A DNA stretch of 34,298 bases from a virus. The stretch covers positions 1 to 34,298 of IMG/VR virus record IMGVR_UViG_3300028114_001015. One strand, given 5' to 3'. The notes under the pieces were generated by a model. The model saw only the letters and a list, made by a program, of their open reading frames with translations. It was not told where the DNA came from and did not search any database. Shown in pieces: positions 22,317 to 28,155 of the stretch (the first letter of the stretch is position 1; the number at the start of each line of letters is the position of its first letter). Made by a program: the position numbers and the translations under genes.

Positions 22317-23173
22317 GGTTTTAAGTAATAAATCTCCTGTTGTTTGCCGTTTTCGCGCCGTCCGCCTGGCGCCCTTACCCACTGCCATTTGAGCCAAAGC
22401 TTGCTGTCGTGACCTAAAAACACCGCGTGCCGGAACCAGCGCAACTGTTCGCCCTCCGACAGCGCCTCGGCGTCGAACCACCCGTGCACGCTTTTGCCGC
22501 CCGAGTAGACGGCCAGCCGCAGCGGGCAGCGCGGATGGTCTAAGGAGGCAATCGCGTTGCACTGCTCCTCCAGGTCGGTGCCATAGTCGCATTCGATCAC
22601 CAGCCAACGCCGCCGCCGGCACGAGTTACCGCGGCACCGCGCCGAAGGCCGTCCGTCGGCCAGCCGCCCCTCCGCGGCCCGCATCGCGTTCGGCACGCAA
22701 AATTGCACATTGTGCAAGAAATCCCGCCACTCCTCCAGCGGTCGCGTTTCCGCCTGGTATTCGTTTGCCCCGGCGCAGACCCACGCCCCCGGTGCGTAAA
22801 GCATCTGCCAAGCTTCAGCGGCCGCCGCCCCGCAAGGCTTCGGCCCGAACAACCCGCGGCCGTCCCGCTTGCTGCGCGCTTCGCGGCTTGGTAAAGGCCA
22901 ATCTGGCACTCGCTCCCGCTCGGCCACCGGACCCGCCTGGACCGCCCGCACGGCATCCCGCACCGCACGCCGGATCTCCCCCGTAAAATCCCGTGTCGCG
23001 TTCCAGCCCAGCCGATCCGAAATATTCAACAGCACCGCCTCAAGCTTCTCTGGCGACTTATGCCTAGCGCCGTAGAAAGCCACCTTGTTGATCCAATCAT
23101 GCCGCGGCATCCCATCCGGCACGCCCTCAAGGAGCCGGCGGAAGCTAGTAGAGTAAGAATCAAGGACGGCCAT
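22313..23173 (-). CDS. Archaeo-eukaryotic primase (AEP)-like protein
   Basis: The C-terminal half shows AEP-type motifs. RRWLVIECDYGTD holds the acidic motif I region, then LAVYSGGKSVHGWFDAE gives motif II with its S-x-H pattern. FLGHDSKLWLKW and VRAPGGRRENGKQQEIYYL follow as the motif III region and a nucleotide-binding end. The N-terminal half (1-130) is helical and unassigned. The ATG at 23173 shares one base with the polymerase stop (TAATG), so it is co-translated with it. At 286 residues it lacks a fused helicase; the next gene supplies that. It would make primers for the family A polymerase. Confidence 0.72.
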   Translation of the reverse strand: MAVLDSYSTSFRRLLEGVPDGMPRHDWINKVAFYGARHKSPEKLEAVLLNISDRLGWNATRDFTGEIRRAVRDAVRAVQAGPVAERERVPDWPLPSREARSKRDGRGLFGPKPCGAAAAEAWQMLYAPGAWVCAGANEYQAETRPLEEWRDFLHNVQFCVPNAMRAAEGRLADGRPSARCRGNSCRRRRWLVIECDYGTDLEEQCNAIASLDHPRCPLRLAVYSGGKSVHGWFDAEALSEGEQLRWFRHAVFLGHDSKLWLKWQWVRAPGGRRENGKQQEIYYLKP

Positions 23174-24891
23174 TACTTTCCATATGCCTCCATGATCTGC
23201 GCCTCGCACTCCACCGGCAGCTCCGGCAGCCAAACTGGCGCCGTGCTCATAATTTCCCGCACCGTGACCAGATCCTTTTCGGCGGTATCAATTAATACCT
23301 CGCACACGATCTCGTCGTGAACGTGCAGCACAACAGGGATACCTGCGGCCTCAATTTTCAGCACCATATCGGCCATCACATCCCGCGCCGTGCCTTGGAT
23401 CAGGTTTTCGCAAAGCTTGCTGCCCCAATAGCGAACCCGCTTACCGCTCTTAATGACCGAGCACTCGCTGCCTACCAGCTCAAAGTAGCGGAGCGGACGG
23501 CCGGCCTTAGTCTTGATCGACAGCACCGACTCGGCCCTGCCGAACGCCTTGTCCAGGCGCTCCCACAACCCGACAATCCGAGGGTTGGTCTGCCGGAACT
23601 CCTCGACAAAGGTCTTGGCGTCTAGCTCGTCCAAGTCAAGGCCCGCCATGATCTTGGCCACCCGTCGGAACGTAACCGGCCCCGCCCCGTAGGAGAGCCC
23701 CAGCACCCTCGCCTTGGCCAGCGCGTAAAGCTTTGGTTGCTCCTTCTTGAGCGGCCCGCCCTCCCACATCATCGTCGCCCGGGCGTGCGCCTCGTAAAGG
23801 GCCAGACCGCTCCGCAGCCCCGCCAGCATTTCTGTATCCCCGCAAAGCACCGCCAGCACCCGTGGTTCGATCTGCGCGAGATCCGAAACGATAAAGACCT
23901 TACCCCCCGGCGGCTTGATCAACCCGCGCACATCGATCCCGCCCTCGGCATCCCGCGAATTAAGGTTCTGCAAATTCAGGCCGTCTGACCCCGACCAGCG
24001 TCCGGTGACCGCGGCGCCGTAGTAACGCAGCGCCCCGTGCAGCCGGCCGTGCCCCGACCGCTTAACCATCGCCCCGATGACTGTTCGAGTGCGGTTAAGC
24101 CGGCGCCACTTGTTAATCGCCCGCACCCAGGGCACTGACTTTTCGTTAGAGTCCAACCACGCCTGCCAAGCTTCGCTTTTCTCCGCGGTCGTTTCCGGCG
24201 GCACTAGCCCTAACCGAGAGCACTCAGTAAAAAGTTCCAGCCTCGAGGTCGGCGGCTTGCCCGCGGCCGTCCACGGGATCTTACCCGCGGCGGTCTTAAG
24301 GCTTTTGTCCAGCTTTACCAGCGCAGCCTTGGCTGCGTCTTGGTCAAATCCGATCCCGCGGGCTGCCATCATCCTCGTATGCCGCGAGAGCAGGCGCTCG
24401 CTCTCGGGCCAACGGTGCGAAAACTTCTTCCACAGCTCGTAGCACAGCCGGGCATCCTCCAAGGCATACTCGGCAATCTCCGCGGCCAACGGCGTGAAAA
24501 GCGTTTCACCCATCATCGCATCCCGCACCGACTTATCCACCGCCACGCCCAGCCCGACCCGGCAAGCATCCTTAAGTGAGCGCGGATGTTGCAAGTAGCC
24601 CATAAGATCCGCCGTGCAATCCCACAAGGCCGGCCGCGGATACCAACCGTCAAGCTGGCCGTGCACTTGCTCATCAAAGGCGGCATTGTGCGAGATCCAG
24701 TGCGGGTAATTCGCGGCCTCGTCCCAGGGCGCATCCGACGGCTTGCCGGCATACTGCAACCCCTCGGCCCACATACTCACCGTATGCGCCGCAAAGCGCC
24801 CGTCGCGGACATAGGCCCACGCTCCCAAGTCTCGCACCGAATACTCACGCGAGTAGTCGGTCTCGTAGTCGATGGCGAGGACGTTGGTCAT
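23173..24891 (-). CDS. Family A DNA polymerase with 3'-5' exonuclease
   Basis: This 572-residue replicative polymerase has an N-terminal exonuclease: AIDYETD (Asp8, Glu10), SHNAAFDE (Asn69, Asp73) and YALEDARLCYELW (Tyr142, Asp146). The polymerase domain has motif A IVSDLAQIEPR (Asp337), motif B KARVLGLSYGAG and motif C HVHDEIVCEV (Asp526). No 5'-3' nuclease domain is present. Aligning motif B with E. coli Pol I puts Leu397 at the position of Phe762. In marine phage surveys Leu there has been linked to temperate or slow lifestyles. The ATG at 24891 overlaps the HNH gene stop (ATGA). Confidence 0.92.
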   Translation of the reverse strand: MTNVLAIDYETDYSREYSVRDLGAWAYVRDGRFAAHTVSMWAEGLQYAGKPSDAPWDEAANYPHWISHNAAFDEQVHGQLDGWYPRPALWDCTADLMGYLQHPRSLKDACRVGLGVAVDKSVRDAMMGETLFTPLAAEIAEYALEDARLCYELWKKFSHRWPESERLLSRHTRMMAARGIGFDQDAAKAALVKLDKSLKTAAGKIPWTAAGKPPTSRLELFTECSRLGLVPPETTAEKSEAWQAWLDSNEKSVPWVRAINKWRRLNRTRTVIGAMVKRSGHGRLHGALRYYGAAVTGRWSGSDGLNLQNLNSRDAEGGIDVRGLIKPPGGKVFIVSDLAQIEPRVLAVLCGDTEMLAGLRSGLALYEAHARATMMWEGGPLKKEQPKLYALAKARVLGLSYGAGPVTFRRVAKIMAGLDLDELDAKTFVEEFRQTNPRIVGLWERLDKAFGRAESVLSIKTKAGRPLRYFELVGSECSVIKSGKRVRYWGSKLCENLIQGTARDVMADMVLKIEAAGIPVVLHVHDEIVCEVLIDTAEKDLVTVREIMSTAPVWLPELPVECEAQIMEAYGK

Positions 24892-25679
24892 ATCTCGACC
24901 CACTTCGTAAAGCGGGAAAAGGCCGTTCTTAAATCAGACGCAACCAAACAATCCCAATCTTGAGTCGCAGGCCAAACCCTCGCCGCCAAAAACCAGTATT
25001 CCTCAAGCAGCTCTTTAGTCGAAAATAACACAGCGCATCTATTGAGGCGGCTGGCATTCCGCAAAAACCAATCGACTTCAAAGCAAGTCCCGTAAGCGCC
25101 GGTTCCGTCTATGTAAGCGAACATTGCGTCCGCGTTCTTCATCCAAGCATAGCACTTCTCGTAAACTTCTATCCTCCGGGCCATTCGACCGTGAACCGAC
25201 AAAGCGGAAAAATCACCAACGTAAACGTGCCCTCCGTCCTCCTCCAGCCACTCGGAAACCAGTTGTCCGTGTTGGCCGTCCCCATGCGCTGACCCGTGTT
25301 CGCTGTCGGCAAAATAAGGCCCAGCGTAAGAGACTTGGATCAGCCCGTCCTCGCTTGCCCACAAACTTTTGTAGCCCTCACCAAACTCAAGGTCGAACAA
25401 ACTGTGCCGCCAATCGCTTCTGCCGATCTTCCCTGCGCAATAAACCGAAAAGCGTTTTGTGGTCTTACCTTTCCCGTGCTTACCGCTATGGCAAGGCTCG
25501 CACAGCACCTCGAGGTCGTGATCCAACGCCTCCCACGGTTGTCCGCGGTATTTCTTGTGGTGAACGTGCAGGGTCGTCTTGTCGTCTTTGCACCGTTCGC
25601 ACTTCCATCCCCGCAGCTCGAGGATGTGCAAGCGGCGTTTCTGCCACCGCGGATCTTTGAGTTTCTGGGAGTAGGTCAT
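24888..25679 (-). CDS. HNH endonuclease fused to a nucleoside 2-deoxyribosyltransferase-like domain
   Basis: Residues 1-70 are an HNH nuclease with zinc-binding Cys27/Cys30 and Cys60/Cys63 around the catalytic LHVHHKKY (His40, His41). Residues 77-263 look like a nucleoside 2-deoxyribosyltransferase: FSVYCAGKIGRSDWRHSL, VSYAGPYFADSEHGSAHG and ADAMFAYIDGTGAYGTCFEV, where Glu201 is at the catalytic position of the family. That family exchanges bases on deoxynucleosides or hydrolyses nucleotides, so the enzyme might remodel nucleotide pools or modified bases while the HNH part cuts DNA. The ATG at 25679 overlaps the preceding gene's stop (ATGA). The fusion is unusual and appears uninterrupted. 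Confidence 0.82.
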   Translation of the reverse strand: MTYSQKLKDPRWQKRRLHILELRGWKCERCKDDKTTLHVHHKKYRGQPWEALDHDLEVLCEPCHSGKHGKGKTTKRFSVYCAGKIGRSDWRHSLFDLEFGEGYKSLWASEDGLIQVSYAGPYFADSEHGSAHGDGQHGQLVSEWLEEDGGHVYVGDFSALSVHGRMARRIEVYEKCYAWMKNADAMFAYIDGTGAYGTCFEVDWFLRNASRLNRCAVLFSTKELLEEYWFLAARVWPATQDWDCLVASDLRTAFSRFTKWVEI

Positions 25680-25927
25680 CGAACAAACTCCCCAAAAACC
25701 TTGTTGCGATTCTGCCGTGCTTCCTCGAGGTCTCGTGTGTTAAGCGACACGGCAATCCGCTCGCCCTTCACAAACTTGTTTGGTGCTTTGGTTGTAACCC
25801 TCGCCCAATACTTTCCGTTGTTGTTCCAGATAAAAGCGTCTGGAAATTCCTTGAACAAGTCCGCGGCGGCCGACTGGTCGCCGGCCAAGGCCAATTCCTT
25901 GAGTTGGTTTAGGCGCGGATTTTTCAT
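25676..25927 (-). CDS. Small protein resembling an integrase arm-binding domain
   Basis: The ATG at 25927 gives 83 residues; codons upstream are the nuclease gene in another frame. Residues 36-75 (FIWNNNGKYWARVTTKAPNK and then ERIAVSLNTRDLEEARQNR) resemble the AP2-like N-terminal arm-binding domain of tyrosine recombinases, a three-stranded sheet followed by a helix. No catalytic domain is attached and none was found elsewhere. It may be a free DNA-binding protein or a remnant. It overlaps both neighbours by 4 bases (ATGA). Confidence 0.5.
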   Translation of the reverse strand: MKNPRLNQLKELALAGDQSAAADLFKEFPDAFIWNNNGKYWARVTTKAPNKFVKGERIAVSLNTRDLEEARQNRNKVFGEFVR

Positions 25928-26730
25928 GCCACCTCCTTCCGCGGGTCGTAACCCTTCAACCGGCGCCACAGCACGCACGCCGCCTTGAACGCCTCCCACT
26001 CTCCGCGCAGGTTGTCGTGCTTGCAGACCTCCATGCGCCCGGGTTCGGTCGTGCTGATAAACACGTTGGCCGCGGTCACGCTTTCCAGCGCCTCCTCGCC
26101 CCAACGCGCTACGGCATAGGCCGCGAGCTGCATCCCTTGGCCGTCGTAAGGCGTGGCCTCTTTGCCTGGCTCCGTCTTGCGCGTCTTGTAGTCCAGAATT
26201 ACCGGCTGCCCCTTCTTACCCTTGCCGATCACATCGCAGCGGCCGGCGTAGCCTTCGATCTCGTTAACTAGGACAATCTCCCGCTCACTAAAGACCAAGC
26301 CATACTTGCGCTTCCATTCAAGCGTCGGCTGCACATACGGCAGCAGCTCGTCGGGCACGGCCTCGCCCTCAAAGACCTTCTCCAGCCCGTCGTGAATCTT
26401 GCTGCCGAGATCCGCGGCCTGCACTACTTGCGTGAACGCCGCCTCGATGATCCGACCGGTGTAGTAATCTTCCGATTCCTTGCCGTCCGGTGGACTGGCG
26501 AAAGCCGCTAAGGCAACCTGGTTAAGCTTCCACTTATCGAGACCAGGCTTGGCAATGACGCCGAGAATATTGGTTACGCTGGGCAGCAGCCCCAGCTTCT
26601 TAGCGTCCCTAATGGTCGCCGCCCTGAGTCCGTCGCCTTTTGACTTCGGCAACTGGTGACACGGTTCGCCTGTTGGCTTATACCAATGCGAGCCCGTCAG
26701 TCTTGCTTTTGTGTCCGCGAGAATGGCCAT
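25924..26730 (-). CDS. PD-(D/E)XK nuclease, RecB/Cas4-like
   Basis: This 268-residue protein has the RecB-type nuclease motifs. GSKIHDGLE (His113) is motif I. GYAGRCDVIG (Asp166) and VILDYKTRK (Asp180 and Lys182) are motifs II and III. QLAAYAVARW is the following QxxxY-type motif. Enzymes of this kind resect DNA ends and, in phages, often work with an SSB or annealing protein. No Cys cluster for an iron-sulphur centre was seen. The gene follows the SSB gene after a 61-base gap containing a strong hairpin, and precedes the small arm-like gene by overlap. Confidence 0.8.
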   Translation of the reverse strand: MAILADTKARLTGSHWYKPTGEPCHQLPKSKGDGLRAATIRDAKKLGLLPSVTNILGVIAKPGLDKWKLNQVALAAFASPPDGKESEDYYTGRIIEAAFTQVVQAADLGSKIHDGLEKVFEGEAVPDELLPYVQPTLEWKRKYGLVFSEREIVLVNEIEGYAGRCDVIGKGKKGQPVILDYKTRKTEPGKEATPYDGQGMQLAAYAVARWGEEALESVTAANVFISTTEPGRMEVCKHDNLRGEWEAFKAACVLWRRLKGYDPRKEVA

Positions 26731-27365: not shown

Positions 27366-27776
27366 TTAGTTTTCCGTGAGGCTTGGTTGATTCGACAGCT
27401 CAGGCGCCTCAGGCTGGCTGCCGTTTTGCCCGCGCTGAAGTCGTTCGACCTCAGCCCGCAGGTTCAAAAGTTCTTTCCACATTGCGACGTAGTGGTGGGC
27501 GCAGACAAAGGCGCACCACTTCCACCCGTTGCGCTTCCAGAAGACAGCCGGCTGCAAGGCCGGATGCGCGTCCCGCTCCGCTTGGAGCAAGTAGGACGGC
27601 GAAAATGTTTCGGTGCGCTTGACCTCAACGTGGCACGGCAGATCGGTCACCACATCAGGCGAGTCATTGCCACCGGCAAACTGTTGGCCGCGCCTGGCAT
27701 CGAACCCATGCTCGCGGAGCAGCTCGCAGAACTCCCGCTCGCCACGCTTGCCCTTGTCGCGGCTCATCTTACTCAT
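27366..27776 (-). CDS. Hjc-like Holliday junction resolvase
   Basis: The start at the ATG at 27776 is supported by GGAGGG 8 bases upstream; a second ATG is three codons inside. The motif order is that of archaeal Hjc and phage resolvases: SRDKGKRGEREFCELL with Glu13, then FAGGNDSPDVV with Asp41, then HVEVKRTE with Glu51 and Lys53. These coordinate metal for symmetric cleavage of four-way junctions. At 136 residues it is close to Hjc, with an extra C-terminal helix rich in Leu and Arg (WKELLNLRAEVERLQRGQNG). It would resolve branched DNA before packaging. Confidence 0.78.
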   Translation of the reverse strand: MSKMSRDKGKRGEREFCELLREHGFDARRGQQFAGGNDSPDVVTDLPCHVEVKRTETFSPSYLLQAERDAHPALQPAVFWKRNGWKWCAFVCAHHYVAMWKELLNLRAEVERLQRGQNGSQPEAPELSNQPSLTEN

Positions 27777-28155
27777 TGTCCATGCCCTCCCCCTCGTATC
27801 GCTCGTCGTATTTCTCGCGCACGCTCTCCGCGATCTCGTCCAACGTGGCCCGCCGGCTGCGGCCCTCAAGGTTCACCAGCGTGACCGACAACTCCGCTTT
27901 CTCGGCCTTTAGCTCATCAATCGTTTTGACCAGGGCCAGCCCGAGCTGCTCACCTGCTTGCACTTGCACGCGCAGCAAATCCCGCTCGGCCTCCACCATT
28001 GCTAGGCTGGCCCGCAGTTCGTCGGCTTCTTGATATAGCCGCACAATACTAACCGCCATCGCGTCTACGGCGGAATTGCTGGCCGAGCAGGCTTGGAAGG
28101 ACTCCCCAAAGCCCACCCGCCCGACCAGCATTTCCCCTGCGAGATTGCTGCTCAA
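27769..28155 (-). CDS. Coiled-coil early protein
   Basis: This 128-residue protein starts with TTG (28155), which overlaps the preceding stop as TTGA and follows GAGGAGG at 7-base spacing. Residues 30-100 are a long amphipathic helix (ADELRASLAMVEAERDLLRV and LVKTIDELKAEKAELSVTLV), suggesting a dimeric coiled coil. A charged C-terminus follows. No family is recognised. It overlaps the resolvase gene by 8 bases. Confidence 0.65.
   Translation of the reverse strand: MSSNLAGEMLVGRVGFGESFQACSASNSAVDAMAVSIVRLYQEADELRASLAMVEAERDLLRVQVQAGEQLGLALVKTIDELKAEKAELSVTLVNLEGRSRRATLDEIAESVREKYDERYEGEGMDNE

Follow-up and report, generated by a model that had tools for sequence, protein, structure and literature searches.

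What purpose does a nucleoside 2-deoxyribosyltransferase (NDT)-like domain serve when it is joined to a phage nuclease? The question is raised by a gene in the IMG/VR virus record IMGVR_UViG_3300028114_001015, whose 34,298 bases are the window analysed here. The gene (24888..25679, minus strand) runs from ATG to TGA, encodes 263 amino acids and joins an HNH nuclease to a domain of the NDT superfamily. The answer put forward, to which about an even chance is given, is a two-domain phage enzyme whose NDT-superfamily domain acts on the base-to-deoxyribose bond of a 2'-deoxynucleotide. The comparisons that follow establish that the fusion is real and conserved, place its fold family, and show that the HNH residues are intact and that Tyr80 and Glu201 are retained.

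The fused gene and its nuclease half

Translation of the window gives a single unbroken frame of 263 codons at 24888-25679, as the original prediction had stated without naming the strand, which is minus; the plus strand across this interval is interrupted by stops. No break occurs between residues 70 and 80, and the same is true of the orthologous gene on an independent contig (L005:4779-5576), which is 73% identical to the window gene and likewise has an unbroken frame. A frameshift or a chimera as the origin of the fusion is ruled out by the one frame and by this independent orthologue.

Residues 1-74 (25458..25679, minus strand) are predicted to be an HNH nuclease from a match to the phage HNH family PHROG 119 (phrog_119, E 8.4e-13), from conservation and from a structure model with a predicted local distance difference test score (pLDDT) of about 90 across residues 1-60. 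The Pfam HNH model scores 18.6 bits in the window, under its cut-off of 21.4, and 22.3 bits in L005, over the cut-off. In all 23 aligned HNH-NDT proteins, two CxxC zinc pairs (Cys27 with Cys30, Cys60 with Cys63) and an HH..H core (His40, His41, His64) are invariant, and each residue that had been named beforehand (Cys27, Cys30, His40/41, Cys60 and Cys63) stands at its predicted position. Asp55, present in 22 of the 23, occupies what we take to be the usual place of the HNH Asn.

Fold family and active site of the NDT-like half

Residues 75-263 and the stop codon (24888..25457, minus strand) are assigned to the NDT superfamily on the evidence of conservation, of a profile of relatives compared with the PDB and of the predicted fold of one relative, L007. 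The placement goes through relatives, as the Pfam score of the window half itself lies below the cut-off (PF05014, E 0.041, 14.5 bits against 28.8). This half has no match in PHROGs or NCBIfam, and a PDB search with it alone returned chance matches only. The bridge to the family is a Streptomyces canus plasmid protein (E 7e-4). Its N-terminal half passes PF05014 (29.6 versus 28.8 bits), and a DUF559/MTES_1575 nuclease makes up the C-terminal half; judged by these matches, it too is an NDT-nuclease fusion, differing in kind from that of the window.

Conservation was counted in an alignment (A5) of 45 of 53 sequences, the 53 being 51 representatives, the window and L002, and residue numbers are those of the window protein. 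Left out of A5 were the near copies L012, L018 and L032, L014 (its frame breaks before the nuclease part), L002 (a plasmid sequence) and L029, L064 and L044 (other domain order). At E <= 0.01, 42 of the 45 match PF05014 and 40 match PF15891; the three that fail to match the former include the window and L005. A profile of 46 domains finds BcmB (E 1.9e-6), MilB (E 1.2e-5) and the Trypanosoma brucei NDT (E 5.7e-5) in the PDB, so that the family profile is closest to the nucleoside-monophosphate (cytidine monophosphate, CMP) N-glycosidases BcmB and MilB, ahead of the transferases. Base exchange or hydrolysis had been envisaged for this domain, and because of this proximity to N-glycosidases hydrolysis is at least as likely as exchange. 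Matches to TIR and SLOG profiles are weaker than those to NDT: two of 46 members match the TIR-like ThsB (best E 2.2e-4), and one matches SLOG cluster 4 below the cut-off. A PUA-superfamily reader domain found no match in the Pfam search of the window, the half in the reader's place being of the NDT superfamily.

The three motifs taken beforehand as deoxyribosyltransferase hallmarks were confirmed, namely YAGPYF (118-123), ADAMFAYI (183-190) and AYGTCFE with Glu201. According to the cited part of PMC12884076, the catalytic triad of NDT enzymes consists of Tyr, Asp (Asn in DmtZ) and Glu. Glu201 is invariant across the 45 sequences, as are Gly197, Gly83, Trp90, Arg91, Gly120, Pro121 and His137, while Lys84 and Thr198 are each found in 44. 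Tyr80, taken as the triad Tyr because it lies where strand 1 ends, is present in 43 and replaced by Phe in two. His128, His132, Cys176 and Trp229 complete the key residues of this half. The Glu201 pocket, singled out by the original prediction, has kept its Glu throughout, though the triad Asp is replaced. In the cited portions of PMC12884076 and PMC10603095, a Tyr at the triad position is linked to the exclusion of ribosylated substrates in NDT enzymes. An activity as NADase is disfavoured by this conserved Tyr.

Several observations weigh against reading the domain as an NDT-type enzyme. The triad Asp is found in none of the 45 sequences. Its position, set by aligning the family profile to BcmB and MilB, whose catalytic Asp falls on Cys176 of the window, holds mostly Cys (26 sequences), then Val (8), Ile (4), Asn (3), Ser (2) and Ala (2), and the pocket is therefore not canonical. 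Residue 195, equated through the same profile alignment with the phosphate-binding Ser of DNPH1 and MilB, is Cys in 34, Ala in 10 and Ser in one. The window half is itself divergent: besides missing the Pfam cut-off, it shares a branch 2.54 long with L005, and at positions 203 and 205 it carries Asp and Phe, against Gly and Ala in 43 of the 45. In the window model, whose mean pLDDT is 78.8, the active-site loop 124-154 is poorly predicted, and the structure check proposed for residues 75-263 gives a divided result. The best VIA rows of this model are YtoQ (Z 11.4) and the NDT 4mcj (Z 10.7), and on its own it ties NDT folds with Ras-type folds (Ras up to Z 10.7); Foldseek gives no PDB match at E <= 0.001 and, against viral models, chiefly HNH proteins. 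The model of relative L007 (mean pLDDT 81.0, predicted template modelling score 0.80) yields NDT-type folds. Its first Foldseek match is a Chroococcidiopsis NDT (E 9.9e-4), and in VIA all 50 among the matches listed are NDT, DNPH1, MilB or YtoQ (Z 10.2-12.5; best match Z 12.5, root-mean-square deviation 2.7, 129 aligned). The idea that Cys176, Cys195 and the loop His form a metal site was discarded: the two Cys show no co-variation (both in 17 sequences, only Cys195 in 17, only Cys176 in 9, neither in 2), and residue 195 of the window is Ala.

Because the triad Asp is absent and the phosphate-binding Ser replaced, the domain could be a mere binder. It would then be a catalytically dead sensor that binds a nucleotide, such as a derivative of NAD+ or ADP-ribose or a modified deoxynucleoside monophosphate (dNMP), and switches the nuclease on, a mode of action already put forward for SLOG-HNH fusions of phages. 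Such a role is possible, if somewhat unlikely; besides the missing Asp, it draws on the two members that score against the ThsB model and on a fusion of the NDT-like domain to an AlpA-type helix-turn-helix (HTH) domain in L044. The cited part of PMC9503650 adds that the TIR-DrHyd-SLOG clade has both sensors and enzymes and that phage SLOG domains are fused to HNH and HTH. A pure binder, however, need not keep Glu201 in every sequence and Tyr80 in nearly all, and Tyr80 also argues against ribose ligands. Since these two residues are kept, chemistry on a deoxynucleotide, either within DNA or free, is favoured over pure sensing, with chances overall about even.

Nuclease partners and their exchange

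Four scans of IMG/VR with the NDT half found 49 further contigs, or 50 with the window (frames read and starts fixed), of which L012, L018 and L032 are near copies. As the query was the NDT half only, originally from a fusion, the count covers this subfamily and not all phage NDT domains. The 50 viral contigs comprise 26 HNH-NDT, two NDT-HNH, six NDT-DUF559 and two endonuclease I-like-NDT proteins, one GIY-YIG-like (MUG113)-NDT, one AlpA-NDT and 12 in which the NDT-like domain stands alone. A nuclease partner, of at least four kinds, is present in 37 of them; that 12 of the 50 have no nuclease in the same frame counts on the opposing side. This repeated joining of one NDT-like subfamily to different nucleases indicates a shared, selected purpose.

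The partners were checked with Pfam, which finds HNH in L029 (E 5.1e-13) and L064 (E 3.3e-13), MUG113 in L056 (26.9 versus 22.3 bits) and DUF559 in L055, L058, L033, L070, L006, L015 and L065. Phage_endo_I in L021 reaches E 0.0011, below the cut-off; L037 has no Pfam nuclease match, and over 54 columns it shares 70% identity with L021 at the N-terminus. The AlpA-type DNA-binding domain (L044:2605-3423) is the only non-nuclease partner seen. Both loci on genome contigs are from Streptomyces, namely L015, an intact NDT-DUF559 fusion, and L014 (L014:3360-4013, Streptomyces violaceoruber), an NDT-DUF559 relative that leaves the DUF559 frame before the nuclease part. Three HNH-NDT proteins (L031, L041 and L088) have an extra Cys-rich, zinc-ribbon-like stretch between the domains, which in L088 matches an IS1595-type ribbon (E 0.0023).

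Outside these scans, relatives were scarce. A viral scan with the full protein and a first genome scan with the NDT half gave no confirmed relatives. In tblastn searches of 50,697 GenBank phage records, the window NDT half gave only matches of E >= 4, and the NDT parts of L002, L017, L007 and L047 gave no match at E <= 0.01 against phage records. Three of 394 genomes from the class of the Streptomyces match were hit: the genome of that match and two others, both weakly.

A tree of 49 NDT-like domains from the 53 sequences (without L012, L018, L032 and L014) needs at least 14 changes among seven architectures, where the least possible is 6 and the mean after shuffling 23.6; support in this tree is weak for 22 of 46 inner branches, with a bootstrap that had yet to settle. 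The label of an N-terminal HNH requires eight changes, five of them forced by starred branches. The HNH protein L010 and the endonuclease I-like protein L021 group as starred sisters (99/84) within a clade of HNH proteins, from which it follows that the nuclease was swapped and the NDT-like domain retained.

Within the fusion gene, the two halves have diverged to different extents. Identity between the window and L005 is 89% in the HNH part and 66% in the NDT part, compared with 93% in the polymerase and 97% in the exonuclease encoded nearby. The ratio of nonsynonymous to synonymous divergence (dN/dS) between the two contigs is 0.083 for the HNH half and 0.115 for the NDT half, which places each half under purifying selection. 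Synonymous divergence (dS) reaches 2.2 in the NDT half (24888-25457 versus L005:5001-5573) and 0.26-0.78 in the flanks and the HNH half. This jump suggests that the NDT half was replaced by recombination within the fusion gene.

Phages commonly carry HNH genes, and these are mobile. The HNH half could accordingly be a homing endonuclease or passenger fused by chance to an auxiliary NDT enzyme, without joint function, and near relatives of the HNH part do occur without NDT in Acinetobacter phage Abp95 and Pseudanabaena phage Pan5. This explanation is nevertheless improbable: at least four nuclease kinds have been joined, in both domain orders, purifying selection acts on both halves, and the same HNH appears in none of the neighbouring ORFs. 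The last point stems from a hidden Markov model of 23 fused HNH domains, which matches every one of the 25 HNH-NDT relatives and none of 191 neighbouring open reading frames (ORFs), these being greedy calls around 22 HNH-NDT loci, excluding ORFs that touch the fusion gene.

Proposed action and genomic setting

On the best reading of these comparisons, the bond that the NDT-like domain would cleave or read is the one between base and deoxyribose in a deoxynucleotide, which may be a modified one. Glu201 would attack C1' and hold the sugar covalently, Tyr80 would orient Glu201 and keep ribose out, and Lys84 and Arg91 may hold the phosphate. A His of the GPxF..(D/E)HG..HG..H loop may aid departure of the base, replacing the missing Asp. 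In DNPH1, water and the leaving group are additionally handled by the Glu-His pair E55-H56 (PMC10603095, in the part cited), and the (D/E)-H at 127-128 in 21 of the 45 sequences might by analogy act likewise, in a loop that is poorly predicted. The NDT-like domain would be the constant part, giving an exchangeable nuclease a base- or nucleotide-dependent trigger, and DNA cutting in the replication module would come after a particular base, perhaps a modified one, had been recognised or excised. The trigger might be a base of rival or host DNA, or a nucleotide released from such DNA.

Alternatively, the domain might hydrolyse or exchange bases on free dNMPs and so shape the phage pool, the nuclease supplying or co-regulating nucleotides from host DNA. 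Free nucleoside monophosphates are the substrates of the closest relatives with solved structures, the genes lie in replication modules, and the phage NDT enzyme DmtZ acts on deoxyadenosine monophosphate and is fused to a dUTPase-like domain in phage Wayne (cited part of PMC12884076). Against this, the partners are endonuclease types and not dNMP-releasing exonucleases, the phosphate-binding Ser is replaced, and neither PurZ over its cut-off nor thymidylate synthase was found in 20 records each, so that an action on the free pool is rated unlikely. The salvage of host DNA that had been suggested is not favoured either: the partner nuclease varies (HNH, GIY-YIG-like and two PD-(D/E)XK kinds), suggesting that the common requirement is DNA cutting. 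A modified-base system had also been proposed, and its known Z type was not found. The PurZ family is over the cut-off in 0 of 20 records, many of them fragments, with two sub-threshold fragments and a positive control in 14 of 14 genomes. For the hydroxymethyl-pyrimidine pathway, PF00303 (thymidylate synthase) gives 0 of 20 records, with the control at 9 of 14. An N6/N4 methyltransferase occurs in 4 of 20 records (one record differs from the PurZ/PF00303 set), with no clear link.

In a variant of the reading in which the domain acts on the base-deoxyribose bond, it would flip a particular, perhaps modified, DNA base into its deoxyribosyl pocket and read or remove it via Glu201, and the nuclease would cut there. 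To our knowledge, the NDT fold has so far been shown to act only on free nucleosides, nucleotides and NAD+. That NDT-superfamily domains form a new class of base-reading or base-excising modules for phage nucleases, with HNH, GIY-YIG and PD-(D/E)XK exchangeable, is a doubtful proposition at present; if true, it would describe a glycosylase-nuclease or a modification-dependent nuclease on an NDT fold.

Both halves of the protein are of known kinds, the NDT-like domain belonging to a known superfamily, and the pairing with nucleases is the new part as far as the literature was searched; no description of nuclease fusions of this NDT phage family was found in the open-licence papers covered. The N-glycosidases MilB, BlsM and BcmB, which act on CMP or hydroxymethyl-CMP, and DNPH1 share the fold family by profile and structure and the nucleophile Glu in a GT..EIG setting, and the Tyr of DNPH1 is kept. 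They differ in that here the catalytic Asp is mostly Cys and the phosphate Ser is Cys or Ala, while the phage family has the extra GPxF..DHG..HG..H loop and the nuclease fusion. Similarly, DmtZ is a phage NDT-superfamily enzyme that also occurs joined to a second enzyme, as in the NDT-Dut protein of phage Wayne, though the partner is dUTPase-like and, in the cited part of PMC12884076, the phages have 2-aminoadenine DNA. The EVE-HNH and SRA-HNH modification-dependent endonucleases resemble the fusion in layout, a base-reading domain with HNH or PD-(D/E)XK; the reader described in the relevant part of PMC7897488 belongs to the PUA superfamily, whereas here it is an NDT domain with a catalytic Glu for which base reading is only proposed. 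Phage SLOG-HNH and SLOG-HTH proteins also join a Rossmann-type nucleotide domain of the TIR-DrHyd-SLOG clade to HNH or HTH, through SLOG and not the NDT/DrHyd branch; in the cited part of that viral survey, DrHyd domains in viruses are only of the ADP-ribosyl-cyclase type (PMC9503650). NDT-type domains are furthermore found in conflict systems, such as AbiJ-NTD1-NDT (PMC3710099) and the retron Eco1 NDT effector (PMC12405507). As far as the cited parts of these sources go, those are bacterial defence proteins with other partners, in contrast to the viral, nuclease-linked family described here. PMC3710099, in the part cited, proposes that NDT domains in Abi proteins remove bases from DNA, as ricin acts on RNA, and the fusions across uncultivated phages give a direct test of this proposal that NDT domains act on DNA. 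If it holds, phage nucleases would have a new trigger or chemistry, and the fusions might serve as a tool to cleave DNA at selected modified bases.

The fusion gene lies directly before the polymerase gene, as had been noted: its stop overlaps the ATG of the DNA polymerase A ORF (23173..24903, minus strand; PF00476, E 5.8e-29; phrog_17, E 1e-84) as ATGA. Its start ATG overlaps, again as ATGA, the stop of a small upstream ORF (25676..25930, minus strand), whose extent is taken from an 83-residue orthologue in L005 and which is listed in the window as 25676-26104. Because of these overlaps at both ends, the gene sits in a tight operon. A PD-(D/E)XK exonuclease (25924..26730, minus strand; PF12705, E 7.3e-8; phrog_298, E 1.7e-22) belongs to the same replication/recombination module, and the window also encodes an AAA ATPase, a RusA-like resolvase, a gpA-type terminase and a portal protein. 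Genes near relatives include Sak4, an ERCC4 nuclease, a primase/helicase and a polymerase clamp; all 10 neighbouring proteins tested have a DNA-metabolism match, having been picked by eye and hence giving no rate.

Two further loci deserve mention. At 27366-27869 the window has a RusA/Hjc-like resolvase gene, and the same place in the otherwise similar phage L005 (2541-3092) holds an unrelated ORF that resembles a RuvC-type nuclease, a label given by eye. On the Moraxella osloensis plasmid pNP7-2 (L004:2143-5427), an NDT-like match lies within a gene annotated as a PfkB kinase, which has a 7-cyano-7-deazaguanine synthase-like gene and a gene for an 'anti-phage deoxyguanosine triphosphatase' as neighbours; this region is a possible nucleotide-based conflict operon.

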